A DNA stretch of 64,000 nucleotides from Gemmatimonadota bacterium (lineage in GTDB: Bacteria; Gemmatimonadota; Gemmatimonadetes; Palauibacterales; Palauibacteraceae): contig JAJEEM010000058.1 of the NCBI GenBank assembly GCA_022820995.1, forward strand, positions 1-64,000, given 5' to 3'. The position numbers and the translations under genes were made by a program. Shown in pieces: positions 46,485-55,305 of the stretch (the first letter of the stretch is position 1; every line of letters begins with the position of its first letter). The notes beneath the pieces are model-generated. The model searched no databases and was not told where the DNA came from. It worked only from the letters and a program-made list of their open reading frames with translations.

Positions 46485-46624
46485 CGGCCCCCGGAAGCCA
46501 CATTCCGTCGCTCCGGACGGTTGCCGGGCGCGGTGTCGGGCTGGTGGCGTGGGGTCCTGCTCATCATTCTAATTGTCCGGCGGCCCGGCCGGGGGCCGCC
46601 TCCGCCCCGAACGGAGGGATGGAA

Positions 46625-47299
46625 ATGGACTGGGACGCGATACTCCTCGAGCCGATCCGCGCCTTACTCGATCAACTGGTCGGGTTTCTCCCCAACCTCC
46701 TGGCCGTGCTGGCGATTCTCATCGGTGGCTGGATCGTCGCCAAGCTGATCAAGACGGGGCTCGTCCGGCTTCTCCGGGCAGTGAAGGCGGACAGCGTGGC
46801 CGAAAGGATCCAGTTGGCGGAGATGCTCGCCAGGGGAGGCATCGAGCGCACGTTCTCCCAGCTGGTCGGAGCCCTGGCCTACTGGATCGTCATGCTCGTC
46901 GTGCTGGTGGCGGCGCTGAACGCTCTCCAGCTCACGGCCACCGCCGAGTTGCTCCAGCGGCTCGTCGGCTTCCTGCCCACGATCGTGACGGCCGTCGTCG
47001 TGCTGATTCTCGGCATCCTGGCTGCCGGTTTTCTGGGGGCGACGGTCCGCGCCGTAGCCAGCAACGCGGGCATCGCCCAGGCTCAGGTGCTGGGGCAGTT
47101 CGCACAGGTCGTCGTCATCATCTTCGCCGTGGTCGTGGCCCTGCAGCAGGTTCAGGTCCAGTTCGTGGGCGACGCCTTCCTGATCATCCTCGCGGCCATC
47201 GGCTTCGGCCTGGCCCTCGCGTTCGGGCTTGGATGCAAGGATCTGGCGGGCCGCTGGATGAGCGACCTGGTCGACCGCCTCTCGCCGCGAAAGGACTAG
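46625..47299 (+). CDS. Conserved TM-helix (MscS-related channel-like) membrane protein
   Basis: ATG at 46625 lies seven bases after GGAGG (an in-frame ATG at 46619 is too close). The 224-residue product has five or so membrane helices with repeated Gly-rich segments (Ile-Leu-Ile-Gly-Gly-Trp-Ile-Val-Ala; Gly-Phe-Gly-Leu-Ala-Leu-Ala-Phe-Gly-Leu-Gly) separated by short amphipathic helices. This is the conserved TM-helix repeat family related to mechanosensitive channels, lacking the MscS beta domain. Its role is probably ion leakage or osmotic stress. An A/T-rich patch around 46562-46576 may be its promoter. Confidence 0.78.
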   Translation: MDWDAILLEPIRALLDQLVGFLPNLLAVLAILIGGWIVAKLIKTGLVRLLRAVKADSVAERIQLAEMLARGGIERTFSQLVGALAYWIVMLVVLVAALNALQLTATAELLQRLVGFLPTIVTAVVVLILGILAAGFLGATVRAVASNAGIAQAQVLGQFAQVVVIIFAVVVALQQVQVQFVGDAFLIILAAIGFGLALAFGLGCKDLAGRWMSDLVDRLSPRKD

Positions 47300-48779: not shown

Positions 48780-48902
48780 GCGTCTGGAACTCCTCGAAGA
48801 GGGACGGATAGAACGGTCTGAAGAAGCTGGCCCGGCGAAGCGCGTCTGGCTAGCCTTGGTCGCCATTTCTTGTACCGGTCACGGGGGTTGGGGGTGGAGA
48901 AG

Positions 48903-49766
48903 ATGAAATCGTGGATCGTGCTGGCCCTGGCTGCGGCGCCGACCGCCGCGCCGGTCGCGTCGCTCCAGGAAGAGCTTCAGGAAGAGGCGGAAACCGTCTG
49001 GTCCTACAACGCCGAGCTGAGCCTCCTCTTCACCTCGGGGAACTCCACGGTGCGCACGTTCGGCCTCGGCGGCGGCGCCCGGCGCGAGTGGGGCGGGGGA
49101 GAACTGTCGCTGAGCGCGGGAGGCCTCCGAACCGAGTCCGGCACCACCCGGCGCATCGCCGTGGGGACCCCGGACCATTTCACCGTGGCGAGCGACTCCG
49201 ATCCCGAGCCGACGGCCGAGAACTACTTCGCGCGGGGCGAATTCGAGCGTTCGTTCTCGGATCACGTGCACCTCACGGCCGGCGCCGGCTGGGAGCGGAA
49301 CACCTTCGCCGGGTACGAGAGCAAGCTCTCCCTGGTGGGCGGCATCGGAAACATGTGGATCGACAACGAGAGGACCCGGCTCAAGAGCGACTACGGGATC
49401 ACGCTCACCGCCCAGAACGATGTCGTCGACGACCCGGACAGGAGTTCGACGTTCGGTGGCATCCGGGTCTCCACCAACTTCCGGCGTCAGTTGACCGAAA
49501 CGGCCAACCTCGAGAGCACGCTGACGCTGGACGAGAACCTCACGGACGCCTCGGATCTCCGCGCCGACCTCGCGAACTCCCTCGCGGTCGAAATCAACAG
49601 TTCGCTGGCCGTGAAGACGGGCCTCCGGCTCGCGTGGGACAATGTGCCTGCGCTGACGCGGGCGCCGCTGGAGGAGCCGGGAGGGGCCGCAACCGGGGAG
49701 ACGGTCCTCGTCCCGCGCCACAAGCTCGACTCCACGCTGACGATCGCGCTCGTCGCGAACTTCTGA
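48903..49766 (+). CDS. DUF481 outer-membrane beta-barrel protein
   Basis: ATG at 48903 follows GTGGAG; 287 residues with a short signal peptide. The body is a row of amphipathic strands with Asn-Ala-Glu-Leu-Ser-Leu-Leu-Phe-Thr-Ser-Gly-Asn-Ser, the usual DUF481 opening, and it ends in a Phe (Val-Ala-Asn-Phe), the outer-membrane assembly signal. DUF481 proteins are salt- or stress-induced barrels of unknown role. The MscS-type channel gene begins 48 bases downstream on the same strand, so they may share an osmotic-stress transcript. Confidence 0.82.
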   Translation: MKSWIVLALAAAPTAAPVASLQEELQEEAETVWSYNAELSLLFTSGNSTVRTFGLGGGARREWGGGELSLSAGGLRTESGTTRRIAVGTPDHFTVASDSDPEPTAENYFARGEFERSFSDHVHLTAGAGWERNTFAGYESKLSLVGGIGNMWIDNERTRLKSDYGITLTAQNDVVDDPDRSSTFGGIRVSTNFRRQLTETANLESTLTLDENLTDASDLRADLANSLAVEINSSLAVKTGLRLAWDNVPALTRAPLEEPGGAATGETVLVPRHKLDSTLTIALVANF

Positions 49767-49814: not shown

Positions 49815-51065
49815 ATGGCCGGTCGATCGAATCCACGCGCCCCGCGGCCCGCGAGAGCCGCGAGGCTGTTGCCGCATCTGCTGCTGACGGTCTTCGCCGG
49901 GTGCTGGCCAGCGCCGCCGCAGGAGGGGGAGCCCGAGTCCGAGGTCGTTTCCGCGGTCGCGGCTGAATCCGGGGCCGAGTCCGGGACGCCCGTCGGGTCG
50001 GGAGGGATCGAGCCTCCGCCGGGGTCGGAAACACCGGTCGGCGAATCCGCACAGGAGGCGCCGCCCGCGGCTCGGGACTCGATCGGGATCCAGCTGGAGG
50101 CCCTTGCGCTGGCCCAGGAAAGGATCCTGGCTCGGCTGGATTCGCTACGGCCCGCCACGACCGCCGCGGCTGCGGAAGATACGGCGTCCGCGGGGCCTGT
50201 GAGCCTCGACCTCGAGGAAGCGGGGGAGGAGGTACGGGGCCTCGGCGTCGGGATCTTCTGGTCTCTCGTCATCATCATCATCTTCCACTTCCTGATCCGG
50301 GCCCTGGTCTGGACGCTGGAGGTGCTCGCCGAGCGCAGCGTCCGCCGCCGACTCGCCGTCAAGTCGCTCATCCCCATCATCCGCATGCTCCTGTGGGCGA
50401 TCGCGGCCTACCTCATCCTGCGCACGGTTTTCCGCGTTGACGCGCAGGGAATCCTGGCGGCGAGCGCCGCCCTGGGGGTGGCGCTGGGGTTCGCCGCGCA
50501 GGATCTGCTCAAGAACGTCTTCGGAGGCCTGATCGTCGTCCTCGATCAACCTTTCCAGGTCGGCGACAAGATCTCCGTGGGGGGGACGTACGGTGAGGTC
50601 GTCTCCATCGGACTTCGCTCGACGCGGATCGTCACGGCCGACGATAACCTGGTCTCGGTCCCCAACGCACAGGTCGTGCAGGAACCCGTGGCGAATGCGA
50701 ACGCGGGGCAACTCCACTGCCAGGTGGTCACGGACCTGTATCTCCCGGGATGCGTGGACGAGCGGAGGGCGAAGGAGATCGCGTTCGATGCGGCGGTCAC
50801 GTCCAGGTATGTATTCCTCCAGAAGCCCATCGTCGTCCTGGTAGGGGACGAGTTCCGGACCACGTTCCTCACGCGCGTCCGGATAAAGGCGTACGTGCTG
50901 GACCCGCGCTTCGAGTTTCTCTTCCAGAGCGACGTGACCGAACGGGCTCGCGATGGCTTCCGGGCGGCGGGCCTCGTCCCCGAGCAGGATTGGTATCCTG
51001 CCGTGGAGACGACCCCGCGGACGGGACCGGATCCAACGGCGGCCGGCGGCGGCATCCGCGCATGA
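49815..51065 (+). CDS. MscS-family mechanosensitive channel with exported Pro/Glu-rich N-terminus
   Basis: ATG at 49815 gives 416 residues (TTG 49800 is less likely). An N-terminal hydrophobic leader ends in Ala-Gly-Cys (about 32-34), perhaps a lipid attachment site. Then come about 65 residues of Pro/Glu/Ser/Gly low complexity and a short coiled coil. Three membrane helices start near residue 145. The pore helix Ala-Ala-Leu-Gly-Val-Ala-Leu-Gly-Phe-Ala-Ala-Gln-Asp-Leu-Leu near 220 and the beta domain Gln-Pro-Phe-x-Val-Gly-Asp match MscS. Its stop overlaps the ATG of the giant ATPase gene, so the two products are made together. Confidence 0.87.
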   Translation: MAGRSNPRAPRPARAARLLPHLLLTVFAGCWPAPPQEGEPESEVVSAVAAESGAESGTPVGSGGIEPPPGSETPVGESAQEAPPAARDSIGIQLEALALAQERILARLDSLRPATTAAAAEDTASAGPVSLDLEEAGEEVRGLGVGIFWSLVIIIIFHFLIRALVWTLEVLAERSVRRRLAVKSLIPIIRMLLWAIAAYLILRTVFRVDAQGILAASAALGVALGFAAQDLLKNVFGGLIVVLDQPFQVGDKISVGGTYGEVVSIGLRSTRIVTADDNLVSVPNAQVVQEPVANANAGQLHCQVVTDLYLPGCVDERRAKEIAFDAAVTSRYVFLQKPIVVLVGDEFRTTFLTRVRIKAYVLDPRFEFLFQSDVTERARDGFRAAGLVPEQDWYPAVETTPRTGPDPTAAGGGIRA

Positions 51066-54000
51066 ACACCCGCCTCGGCGATCCGGGCGGCGTTAATGCT
51101 CCGGGCCCGGCAAGCGACGCGGAAATCACGGCCCGGATCTCCGCCTCGGTCCATCAACCCTTCCGGGAAGCCTGGCGGCGGTACGAGGAGGACGCGTGGG
51201 GTCCGATCCGGCGCGCGCTGGACCGTGCGTCGAGAGCCCATGCTCAAGCGCGGGCGGAACTGGGCGGTGCGGGCGCGGTTGACGAGGGGTCGCCCCAACC
51301 GGGTGCGGCGGATGCGTACTATCGAACCGTCTCCAAGGAGGTCCTGAAGCCGCTGTCCGAGGCAATCCGAGGAGCGCGGCTGGCTGCCGGCCTGGAGGCC
51401 TCCCTGTCCGCCGCAAGGGCCCAGGCGGAGGCGAACGTGAGGGAGCTTCCCCCCCGGTCCGAGGTGCCGATCTCCCCGGGCGCCCTGCGGTGGCCGAGCG
51501 GTGCGCAGCGCCCGATCGACGCGAGGCGCCGCTTCGCCCGCGCGCTCCGGCCCATCGTCTGGCGGCGCGAGACGCACGAGGTCCCCGTCGCCGACGTAGC
51601 CCGGAGGCACCTGGAAGCGGTCGTCCTGCCCGGGCAAGCGCGCGCCTTCAGGGCAAGTCAGCGCTTGAGGGCCGCCTGGCTGGGTCGGTTCGAGCGGGCG
51701 TTCGACGCATGGACGAAAGCGGCCCTCGATCCGGAGCGTGAGCCAGAGTCCGGCCACCCGGGGGGGGCGATCGATACGGGCCGCGCGCTACAGGAGGAAC
51801 TCGTGGCCGCGGCGGACCGTTTGGCGTCATCCACCGCGTCCGCGCCCCCTGATGCCCTGGCGCGACCCGAAGAGATCCTGAGCGCGACGGTGGCCGTCGC
51901 CGGCACGTTCGTTTCGCGCGATGCGCCCACCGCGCGGCGCCGGGATGAGGTTGCGGTCCGCGCGGCAGACTGGGACCGGTGGGCCGGGGAGTCGGCCGAC
52001 CGTCTTGAACTGTACCGAATCCTCCTTGACTCAAGTCACGCGATCGCGTCCATCGGACGTGGGCTGGCCGCGGCCTGGGCGGAGACGGTGGACCAGGTGA
52101 ACGGCGTGATCTCGGAAGTCGAGTCGGCACTCGGCGGAGGCCGCCGGAGGGCGGAGGAGATGACGCCGGGGATGGAGGGCCTGAAAGGGGCGCTGGAGGC
52201 CGAGCGTCGCGCCGTCGTCGATGCGCTGGCGCGACCCGCGGCCGTGCTGCGCGACCCCGCGTCCTTCATCGCGGCGCTCGCGGCTGCCGCGGATCAGGCG
52301 GCCGAACAACTCCAGGCGGCGAGCCTGCGACCGCCCGAGTCCGTCTCCGTGCACGAGATCCCCGGCGCAGGCGAAGCGGTGCGGCGTCCGGGCCGGAGTA
52401 CGAGGCAGGTGCGGGTCAGGGAGGCCGCGATCCAATCGTTCGACACGTTCCGGATCGAGAGGGTCCGCCGGATTCCGGCCAGCCTGGGACTCGCGCTCGA
52501 CAAGGTGGGTGCGGAGGTGGCGGAGGTGTGCGAGGTGTCGGCCTACGGGTACGAGGTTGCCCTGGGCGAACTTCCGGAGGCTCGCGGCGGGGCGGAGGAT
52601 CCAGATCGCGAAAGGGTCACGGCACCGGTCACGAACGCCCTGATGCGCGCCGCCGGTAAGCTCGCGCGGACTCGCGAAGCGCTGTTCGAAGCGGCCGCGG
52701 CGGCCGGACGCCGGGCGGATGCGGAGATCGCCGAGGGGACGCGACGGCTGATCCGACGGGCGCTCGCCGGGGGGCTGGCTGCGGAAGTGCTGCGCGCGCG
52801 TTCGTACTTCGAGGGCGAAGTTGCCGGGGATTGGCGACGGTGGCGGAGCCGTTTCTCAACGGGCGAACGCCCGGTCGGGGCGGCCCTCGGCGCCGGACGG
52901 CAACGCCTCGCTTCCTCCTGGAGGAGTCTCGGTCTCCTCCAGGCGACTCCCGGCACGAGCGCGCCGGACGCGCTCTCGCCGGCCTCGGTCGCGGAGGTCT
53001 TTCGCGATCTTCCGGTCGTGTACCGCCGCCTGTTCTCGTTCGAGCCCCTGACCGACCCGGGACTCCTGGCGGGGCGGGACGAAAACCTGGCCGAGATCAT
53101 GAGGCTGTGGCGGGCGTGGGAGAGCGGCGGGCCAGGGTCGGTGATCGTGGTTTCACCGCCCGGCGCCGGGCTTACCAGTTTCTTGAATGTCGTCGCGGGC
53201 CGCCTCCGGGAGGAGTCCCCGGACTGCGTGAGACGGATCCTGAGGGAACGCGAGCGCGATGAATCGCGGTTCACCGGCCAGCTCGCCTCGTGGCTGGGCC
53301 TCGGCGCCTCGTGGGCGCCCGGCGAAGCGGCCGATTTGGACCGTCTCGCCGACCGCGTTCTGCGCGCCCGCGACGGGACGATTCCCCGGACGGCGGTTCT
53401 CGAGGGTGTGGAGCAGTTGCACTTGCGCGCCCCCGGCGGCGACCGCCTCTTCGAGCGCCTGATGAGCTTCATCGCGCGCACGGAGTCGAGGATCTTCTGG
53501 ATCGTGTCGCTAAACGCCTCCGCATGGCAGATCGTCCGCACCCGGCTTCGTCCGTTCGTCAGCGACATGCACTGCCTGACGCTGGCCCCCCTTGGCGCCG
53601 ACGAGTTGCGGGAGGCGATCTTCGCGAGGCACCGGCGGAGCGGGATCCCACTTCAGTTCGATGAAACCCGCGCGGGGACGGCGGCGCTCGTGCGGCGCCT
53701 TCGACGCGCCCGGACGAGCCAGAGACGCCGACAGTTGATCGAGGAGGATTATTTCCGGCGGTTGCATCGTGCTTCGCTCGGTTCCGTGCGTTTGGCGCTT
53801 CTCCACTGGCTGAGGTCCGCGGATCTCAAGACGATCGAGGGCAGCCTTCTCGCGCGGCCTCCGGCGCCGACCTCGTCGTCGCTGGACACGCTGGATCTTG
53901 ACCTGAGCTTTGCCCTCAAGGCGATTCTCGACCACGGAACGCTCACTATCGAGGAGTACAGCGAAGTCATGCGGACCCCGCCCGCCGCCGCGCGGCACAC

Positions 54001-54157
54001 GTTCAGATCGCTCGAAGAGCTGGGTCTGACCGAACCGGAGGAAGCCGAGAGGAGGTCCGATGTCGACCCGCAACCGTCCGCCGCGCGATGCCGCATCCGA
54101 CCCTTGATGCTCGGCGCGGTTTGCCAGCACCTGAGGTCGCGAAACCTCCTGCACTAG
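51062..54157 (+). CDS. Giant helical / P-loop ATPase / winged-helix protein coupled to an MscS channel
   Basis: ATG at 51062 overlaps the MscS stop (ATGA); 1031 residues and no signal or membrane segment. Residues 1 to about 640 are Ala/Arg/Glu-rich and almost entirely helical, without a known family. An AAA/STAND-like module follows: Leu-Ala-Gly-Arg-Asp-Glu-Asn-Leu near 668-675, a degenerate P-loop Ser-Pro-Pro-Gly-Ala-Gly-Leu-Thr-Ser at 698-706 (Lys replaced by Leu704), and a Walker-B-like strand ending Glu781-Gly-Val-Glu784-Gln, then Trp-Ile-Val-Ser-Leu-Asn as a sensor-like strand. The last 100 residues look like a winged helix. Likely a soluble partner that senses or gates the channel, or signals from it; function unknown. 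Confidence 0.72.
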   Translation: MNTRLGDPGGVNAPGPASDAEITARISASVHQPFREAWRRYEEDAWGPIRRALDRASRAHAQARAELGGAGAVDEGSPQPGAADAYYRTVSKEVLKPLSEAIRGARLAAGLEASLSAARAQAEANVRELPPRSEVPISPGALRWPSGAQRPIDARRRFARALRPIVWRRETHEVPVADVARRHLEAVVLPGQARAFRASQRLRAAWLGRFERAFDAWTKAALDPEREPESGHPGGAIDTGRALQEELVAAADRLASSTASAPPDALARPEEILSATVAVAGTFVSRDAPTARRRDEVAVRAADWDRWAGESADRLELYRILLDSSHAIASIGRGLAAAWAETVDQVNGVISEVESALGGGRRRAEEMTPGMEGLKGALEAERRAVVDALARPAAVLRDPASFIAALAAAADQAAEQLQAASLRPPESVSVHEIPGAGEAVRRPGRSTRQVRVREAAIQSFDTFRIERVRRIPASLGLALDKVGAEVAEVCEVSAYGYEVALGELPEARGGAEDPDRERVTAPVTNALMRAAGKLARTREALFEAAAAAGRRADAEIAEGTRRLIRRALAGGLAAEVLRARSYFEGEVAGDWRRWRSRFSTGERPVGAALGAGRQRLASSWRSLGLLQATPGTSAPDALSPASVAEVFRDLPVVYRRLFSFEPLTDPGLLAGRDENLAEIMRLWRAWESGGPGSVIVVSPPGAGLTSFLNVVAGRLREESPDCVRRILRERERDESRFTGQLASWLGLGASWAPGEAADLDRLADRVLRARDGTIPRTAVLEGVEQLHLRAPGGDRLFERLMSFIARTESRIFWIVSLNASAWQIVRTRLRPFVSDMHCLTLAPLGADELREAIFARHRRSGIPLQFDETRAGTAALVRRLRRARTSQRRRQLIEEDYFRRLHRASLGSVRLALLHWLRSADLKTIEGSLLARPPAPTSSSLDTLDLDLSFALKAILDHGTLTIEEYSEVMRTPPAAARHTFRSLEELGLTEPEEAERRSDVDPQPSAARCRIRPLMLGAVCQHLRSRNLLH

Positions 54158-54186
54158 ACTGGACGACTCCCGAGCGCCGGCCGGCC

Positions 54187-55305
54187 CTATTCGGGCCCTC
54201 CCCGGTCATCCACGGCAGGCGAGTCGGATCGAAGGTCGGCCACCGGCCCACCTGGCCGATCGCGAAACACCACGGTCCTGATCGGGAACGGAATTTCGAT
54301 TCCCTCGGTCGCGAATCGCTCATGGATTCGCTTGATCAGGACGTGGCGGATCTCGAACTGATCCGTGAACTGCCGGATCGGCACCCGCAGCAGGAAGTCG
54401 ATGCTGAAGTCGGAGAACGCCCGGTAACGGAGAACGGGCATCTCGTCCGTGAGCCCGCCTTCGATATCTCGGAGCACCTCGCACGCTACGTCCAGAGTGA
54501 CGCGCTCCACCTTCTCGAGGTCCGAGTCATAGGCCACGCCGACGGGTAGCCGAATGAGCAGCTTCTCTTCGGGGAGACTGTAGTTCGTGACGATCGTGGC
54601 GGCCATGATCGCGTTCGGCACGAGTATGCGATTGCGCTCCGGATAGGTCTGGATCGTAGTGTTTCTGACCTGGACGTCGGTCACCCGACCCTCTTCCCCG
54701 GTGGCGAGATGCACGAAGTCACCGGGATTGATCTGGCGCGACATGATGATCTGGATGCCGGCGAACAGATTCCCGAGCGTGTCCTGAAGCGCCAGCGCGA
54801 CCGCCAGGCCCGTGATCCCGACGGTGGCGACCAGCGTCGAGATGTTCACGCCGAGATTCTGCAGAATGATGCCGCCGCCCAGAATCAGCACCAGCAACCT
54901 GACCACGTTCGTGATTATCGTCGACGGTATCCTGGAACCGGCTCTTCGCGTCGCGGCGCGGATGGCGGTCGAAGCGAAGCGAAGCGAGAAGACCACGAGC
55001 GTGACGATCAGGACAATGACCAAGCCGGTTCTCGCGCGACTCGGCCACGGTTCGACGAGCCCCATTGTCGCGACAATCACGTAGCCGGCGCCCGTCAGGA
55101 ACCAGATCCCCGGGAGGCCGCGAAGCGCCTTGCCGATTGCTTCCGGGGCGGCGCCCCGATCCCGACGGCGCCGGAGTCCCCGCACCAGCACCTTCTCCGC
55201 CCCCCAGCCCCCCAGTCCCGCAAGGGCCAGAATCCCGGCGATGCGAACCCACTCCGGGAGCCCGGAAAGGGTGGTCCAGACCTGCTGCGCGTAGTCATGT
55301 CTCAC
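54187..55305 (-). CDS. MscS-family mechanosensitive channel
   Basis: The product has 372 residues. Four or five membrane helices lead to the pore helix Val-Gly-Ile-Thr-Gly-Leu-Ala-Val-Ala-Leu-Ala-Leu-Gln-Asp-Thr-Leu-Gly-Asn near 160-177, then the Sm-like beta domain (Asn-Pro-Gly-Asp-Phe-Val...Gly-Arg-Val-Thr-Asp...Val-Pro-Asn-Ala) and a C-terminal alpha/beta domain. This is the usual small-conductance channel that releases solutes on osmotic downshock. It is convergent with the ATPase gene (29 bases between stops), so two different MscS proteins flank that gene. Confidence 0.9.
   Translation of the reverse strand: MRHDYAQQVWTTLSGLPEWVRIAGILALAGLGGWGAEKVLVRGLRRRRDRGAAPEAIGKALRGLPGIWFLTGAGYVIVATMGLVEPWPSRARTGLVIVLIVTLVVFSLRFASTAIRAATRRAGSRIPSTIITNVVRLLVLILGGGIILQNLGVNISTLVATVGITGLAVALALQDTLGNLFAGIQIIMSRQINPGDFVHLATGEEGRVTDVQVRNTTIQTYPERNRILVPNAIMAATIVTNYSLPEEKLLIRLPVGVAYDSDLEKVERVTLDVACEVLRDIEGGLTDEMPVLRYRAFSDFSIDFLLRVPIRQFTDQFEIRHVLIKRIHERFATEGIEIPFPIRTVVFRDRPGGPVADLRSDSPAVDDRGGPE

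Follow-up and report, generated by a model that had tools for sequence, protein, structure and literature searches.

In the window (the whole stretch of 64,000 nucleotides analyzed here), a gene for an MscS-family channel overlaps a gene for a 1031-residue protein that is predicted to end in an AAA+ domain and a winged helix, and a dedicated MscS-AAA+ pair of this kind was found in Gemmatimonadota, Alphaproteobacteria, a gammaproteobacterium and a haloarchaeon. MscS is a textbook example of a channel held to open by force from lipids. The conserved pair suggests that, in some MscS channels, a partner protein takes charge and membrane tension does not act alone. We consider it fairly likely that the large protein (in the window a pseudo-ATPase) is a dedicated partner that would control the channel in osmotic or ion homeostasis; if so, a branch of the MscS family is under direct protein control.

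Linkage of the channel and partner genes

The channel gene (MscS-A, P0002; 49815..51065, plus strand) encodes 416 residues, was assigned by Pfam, structural alignment and the family alignment A3, and may have an alternative upstream start at TTG 49800. Its stop codon TGA lies within an ATGA overlap (51062..51065, plus strand), whose ATG starts the open frame of the large partner (P0001; 51062..54157, plus strand). A second MscS gene (MscS-B, P0003; 54187..55305, minus strand) converges on the pair, 29 bases beyond the large gene's stop codon, and a DUF481 gene (48870..49766, plus strand; Pfam E 1e-30) lies upstream. The overlap and this layout are as the first-pass annotation had described them. 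A scan for promoters and terminators found nothing. The genome is 3.72 Mb in 78 contigs, and its closest named hit is the Gemmatimonadales MAG contig VXOJ01000008.1; a scan of genome contigs gave one relative.

A profile of seven large proteins was run over 395 Gemmatimonadota genomes. It matched in 103, of which 48 scored above 150 bits, and the 55 with weak matches (<40 bits, around the P-loop) were left out. The match in G249 repeats that in G058 at the same coordinates and was dropped, and the flanks of the other 47 were read. An MscS gene adjoined the large gene on the same strand in 43 of the 43 checkable loci; the remaining four (L063, L065, L071 and L079) are truncated by a contig end, either inside the gene or where it begins. 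The first-pass annotation would have been refuted by homologues mostly unlinked to MscS genes, and these loci show the opposite. The channel gene came first in 41 loci and the ATPase gene in two (L015 and L085). With start codons taken by script as those nearest a 4-base overlap, the overlap was exactly 4 bases in 38 of the 43 loci, and the other five had overlaps of 1, 8, 8, 11 and 14 bases. A search with a profile of the AAA+ core matched 73 of the 395 genomes, namely the same 48, G185 (described below) and 24 weak ones (<41 bits); around the weak places in G050, G182, G208 and G275 (second place), no MscS gene was found in the fetched stretches.

Among 60 relatives, the large protein was present in seven, the genome of the window included. 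A profile of the MscS-A subfamily matched in the same seven, at the adjoining place, with 373.5-662 bits; no other score, whether in the remaining 53 or at other places in the seven, exceeded 108.1 bits. The high scores of the seven paired channels arise by construction, since the profile was built partly from them, which does not apply to the absence elsewhere; as the genome searches score the best candidates per genome only, absence is not certain. The pairing goes beyond chance, because it is kept in all checkable loci and both families occur in the same seven relatives. On the other hand, the large protein was carried by only 4 of the 17 members of the genus while 57 of the 60 relatives had some MscS match, and the pair is therefore unneeded for ordinary osmotic protection.

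Pairwise distances of the cores and of the channels were correlated (r 0.956, 39 pairs), and none of 5000 permutations gave a value as high. G015, from the genus of the window, was closer to G058, from another family, than to the window in both the core (0.17 vs 0.48) and the channel (0.16 vs 0.35). These distances indicate that the channel and the large protein co-diverge and have moved together at least once.

The pair also occurs on plasmids. With MscS-A as the query, tblastn matched 75 plasmid records, of which 60 are among the matches listed, and in the five best of those listed (E <=7e-22; next 2e-11) the ATPase gene lies directly upstream of the MscS gene. The archaeon Salinirubellus has a 331-residue core alone, ATPase-first, with a 4-base overlap; the first of two Novosphingobium records has a 1110-residue ATPase with 2 bases between the genes, and in the second an ATPase-first pair was placed by match coordinates only; Caulobacter has an 860-residue ATPase with a 4-base overlap. 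In Halomonas (L094:4130-4938) the ATPase is frame-broken, which could be a sequencing error or decay, and the C-terminal piece, which lies 40 bases ahead of the MscS start, matched a core profile that did not include it (E 4.8e-13). Single BLASTP comparisons of cores across phyla gave E 7e-7, 8e-6 and 2e-4. For the weaker plasmid matches, no such ATPase gene was present in the annotation of H45, H15, H31, H23 and H26, and searching the stretches fetched for H22 (unannotated there), H15, H31, H23 and H26 with the core profile turned up none. Plasmid searches with P0001 and with P0009 returned nothing and that with P0011 returned only itself, and a search of viral contigs found no relatives.

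Domains of the two proteins and state of the Walker motifs

MscS-A has three hydrophobic segments by hydropathy (residues 143-161, 180-198 and 210-228), followed by the beta-domain (residues 230-296), which scored 70.1 bits with PF00924, above the curated cut-off of 20.2. The MS_channel_2nd match in Pfam was E 1.8e-19 for MscS-A and E 3.1e-11 for MscS-B. The TM2/TM3 pore module PF21088 matched residues 188-229 with 18.3 bits against a cut-off of 23.1, and this stretch is covered by the alignment to 7dlu (E 1.1e-14); in all, residues 150-384 align with solved MscS. The Pfam model of the MscS C-terminal part (PF21082) gave no reported match to MscS-A at E 1. Thus MscS-A resembles MscS (PF00924/PF21088; 7dlu, 2oau) in its three hydrophobic segments and beta-domain, but differs in having a dedicated, overlapping partner gene, an N terminus of the lipoprotein type and, ahead of the membrane part, a stretch that looks like a coiled coil.

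The N-terminal feature was read from the family alignment, which holds 40 of the 43 adjoining channels (L059, L070 and L076 were left out). A lipobox-like Cys, residue 30 in MscS-A, is present in 36 of the 40 aligned channels; it is missing from L015 and L085, which are ATPase-first, from L062, which is cut by a contig end, and from L083. From this conserved Cys we infer a putative lipobox, and the candidate lipoprotein-type signal spans 49815..49904 (plus strand). Between the signal and the first membrane segment, a conserved helical stretch (residues about 88-112; 50076..50150, plus strand) looks coiled-coil-like by eye in the alignment.

The large protein has an N-terminal helical domain (residues 16-585; 51107..52816, plus strand), for which the AF2 model has a pLDDT of 85.1 and a pTM of 0.81. 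Its halves align with each other (hhalign E 3e-4, probability 40%, in a single comparison), so that it may be built from two related units with a small beta pair in each. A structure search with this domain found no significant PDB match. In the predicted structure, residues 648-1028 form an AAA+ fold followed by a winged helix and align to ORC/Cdc6/TnsC structures (1fnn, 2v1u, 7jgr and 8fcu). The C-terminal third of the protein is thus predicted to be an AAA+ domain of the ORC/Cdc6/TnsC type (residues about 648-940; 53003..53881, plus strand) with a winged-helix region (residues about 941-1031; 53882..54154, plus strand). The core profile agrees with the latter, since its positions about 277-345 match winged-helix regulators (best E 1e-4), and both lines bear out the winged-helix-like end noted in the first pass. 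The Pfam model AAA_16 matched the large protein at E 0.0018, under its cut-off. While the predicted fold is like ORC1/Cdc6 and TnsC, the large protein differs from them in sequence (8-17% identity over the listed rows), in the loss of the Walker A lysine, in the attached helical region of ~640 residues and in being paired with a membrane channel, not DNA.

The P-loop of the window's protein reads PPGAGLTS, with Leu704 (53171..53173, plus strand; core alignment) where the Walker A lysine is expected, so the loop is degenerate, as had been noticed from the sequence. The lysine is absent from all 45 rows of the core alignment that are MscS-first or of unchecked order (V in 19, I in 16, T in 3, R in 3, L in 2, A in 1 and H in 1), but it is present in 5 of the 6 ATPase-first rows; the archaeal ATPase-first row has Arg. 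Much of the loop around the lost lysine is retained in most rows. At Walker B, where the positions depend on the alignment, the first position is E in 36 and D in 9 of the 45 rows, and the second is acidic (D) in two. The 45 lysine-less rows form one side of a branch of the core tree (support 93/89), a tree with long branches and a root position that is not fixed. The simplest reading is a single loss of the Walker A lysine, which would have come with a switch of gene order and with the lipobox-like Cys of the channel.

Since the window's clade has no Walker A lysine, nucleotide hydrolysis is unlikely there; with the lysine lost and much of the loop kept, the partner is probably a non-hydrolyzing (pseudo-ATPase) sensor or clamp. 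Most ATPase-first relatives, on the other hand, probably bind and hydrolyze ATP, and control of the channel by nucleotide state is plausible for most of these members. Lysine-bearing and lysine-less versions of the partner exist naturally, so a comparison of the two can serve to test what ATP does.

One relative carries a different N-terminal part. In G185 (L100:2195-8115), a single 1733-codon frame has an APC-type transporter (AA_permease, PF00324, E 1.5e-49) fused ahead of an AAA+ core, a single instance from a draft genome. The nearest NCBIfam model is TIGR00930, a K-Cl cotransporter model, which matched residues 3-553 at E 6e-118 with 395 bits against a cut-off of 953. The core keeps an intact GKS motif and matched a core profile that did not include this protein (E 1.8e-41), and a short MscS-like gene (PF00924 E 1.3e-7) follows the fusion with a 4-base overlap. 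The middle part of the fusion has no significant similarity to the N-terminal helical domain (hhalign E 0.0095, probability 4%). In 3 other genomes of the family of G185, four relatives of the transporter had neither a core nor an MscS gene in the fetched stretches; G352, one of the three, has the L085 pair on a different contig. A transporter of the APC/SLC12 type (PF00324, TIGR00930) is thus joined to the AAA+ core in this relative, unlike in the window, where the large protein has no such domain. We count the fusion toward a putative link of the pair to osmotic or ion homeostasis.

Readings of the pair

In the reading that we prefer, the AAA+ part would bind the cytoplasmic side of the MscS heptamer, and the partner would set when the channel opens, closes or assembles, acting within osmotic or ion homeostasis. 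Some AAA+ relatives form rings, among them a TnsC heptamer. In the window's clade the partner would work as a non-hydrolyzing sensor or clamp, with a channel that carries a lipoprotein-type N-terminal anchor. Such pairs did not appear as described in the titles and abstract beginnings of the matches listed in a literature search that covered few subscription journals and no bioRxiv. An interaction of MscS with FtsZ in E. coli (PMC4440785) offers, as far as its title and abstract beginning go, a likeness, a cytoplasmic protein interacting with the cytoplasmic domain of MscS; FtsZ is a cell-division protein, and the title reports no partner encoded with the channel.

A more specific form of the preferred reading can be put forward tentatively. 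In several bacterial and archaeal lineages MscS might not be an autonomous valve: an initiator-type AAA+ ring might sit on the cytoplasmic cage and gate MscS by its nucleotide state, so that the energy or ionic state of the cell overrides tension; in one large clade the ring would be a pseudo-ATPase, with control shifted to a lipid-anchored periplasmic arm.

An immune-type effector, in which an AAA+/STAND-like protein would detect a phage or toxin and depolarize or lyse the cell by opening the MscS pore, is unlikely. The patchy distribution and joint lateral transfer of the pair would fit; in addition, the nSTAND1 model matched 3 of 14 cores (best E 2.3e-5), and in a Foldseek search, plant NLR resistosomes appeared at ranks 18 and 27, below ORC/Cdc6. 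However, STAND, NACHT and NB-ARC models had no match to the window's large protein up to E 1, and the match of nSTAND_NTPase5 to the relative P0009 was below cut-offs (20.3 against 34). PADLOC-DB 2.0.0 (2023) had no family matching P0001 or P0002 up to E 1, and among eight relatives scanned, three gave short weak matches (best E 3.6e-4, at the P-loop). The large protein had no match in phage records, and in one relative the core is joined to a transporter of ions or amino acids. The membrane-lysis defense role raised in the first-pass annotation is therefore left unsupported, with no PADLOC hit for the pair and no phage match.

Assembly or quality control, in which the AAA+ protein would fold, insert or dismantle the MscS heptamer, also seems improbable to us. 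AAA+ proteins often remodel complexes, and a single dedicated partner beside the channel would suit such a factor, but none of the 45 members that are MscS-first or of unchecked order retains the Walker A lysine, which is a misfit with an energy-driven remodeler in that clade.

Still less probable is mechanical signaling to DNA, in which tension at MscS would free the winged-helix AAA+ protein for control of transcription or replication. The closest folds, ORC, Cdc6 and TnsC, do bind DNA, and a winged helix is predicted at the C terminus. By hydropathy, however, the Novosphingobium and Caulobacter homologues have several membrane segments ahead of the core (single segments inside the core mean little, because they were flagged in 16 of 47 large proteins). 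These versions therefore would not diffuse freely to DNA, which makes the signaling suggested earlier less likely, and no third gene is kept across loci as a target. Of the first-pass ideas, that of a channel with a partner of its own is supported, with 43 of 43 loci linked.

Chance neighbors, or genes of unrelated function in an operon of convenience, would be in keeping with the many overlapping genes of compact genomes, but deserve almost no credence against linkage in 43 of 43 loci, both gene orders, presence in other phyla and co-divergence.

Neighboring genes

MscS-B, which had been taken as part of the unit, was rejected as a member for the window: the two closest loci (G009 and G002) are without it, and a close copy occurs only in the window's genome among the 17 genus members. 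It falls in a patchily distributed group of MscS proteins, with next relatives that are 40-46% identical and in other genera; the one in G022 sits on a different contig from the pair. The DUF481, M20 peptidase and TM-helix neighbors were likewise rejected as partners, as they recur in only 2 of 47 other loci (L010 and L011), both from the window's genus. Thus MscS-B, judged incidental, and the DUF481 gene are local neighbors. Simple gene calling, which may miss small genes, gave no third gene common to all loci. A RecF/SMC-like ATP-binding gene, named by eye, is found close to the pair in 9 of the 47 loci, all from one branch (e.g. L061:7061-8350), and nitrilase-type genes lie in 8 loci, those outside the genus being only about 30% identical to the window's.

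Upstream in the window, a gene at 46544-47299 (plus strand) encodes a 251-residue protein with conserved TM helices of the MscS type (PF05552 E 1.6e-19, two stretches) and no beta-domain match in Pfam; it is found near the pair in G009 and G002 only. At L051, a 122-codon frame (L051:12429-12797) matches the C-terminal end of the large protein only, ~5 kb from the complete gene.

A second MscS gene near the pair was also seen at L075 (two, one of them convergent), at L084 and L092 (both tandem) and, ~4 kb away, at L100. The tandem genes directly follow the pair (L084:5982-6905 in Gemmatimonadota; L092:5702-6640 on a Caulobacter plasmid). The L084 gene had no match to MscS-B at E 1e-3, and the L092 gene is 23% identical to it. 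The two tandem genes are 47% identical to each other, and we regard them as a lead.
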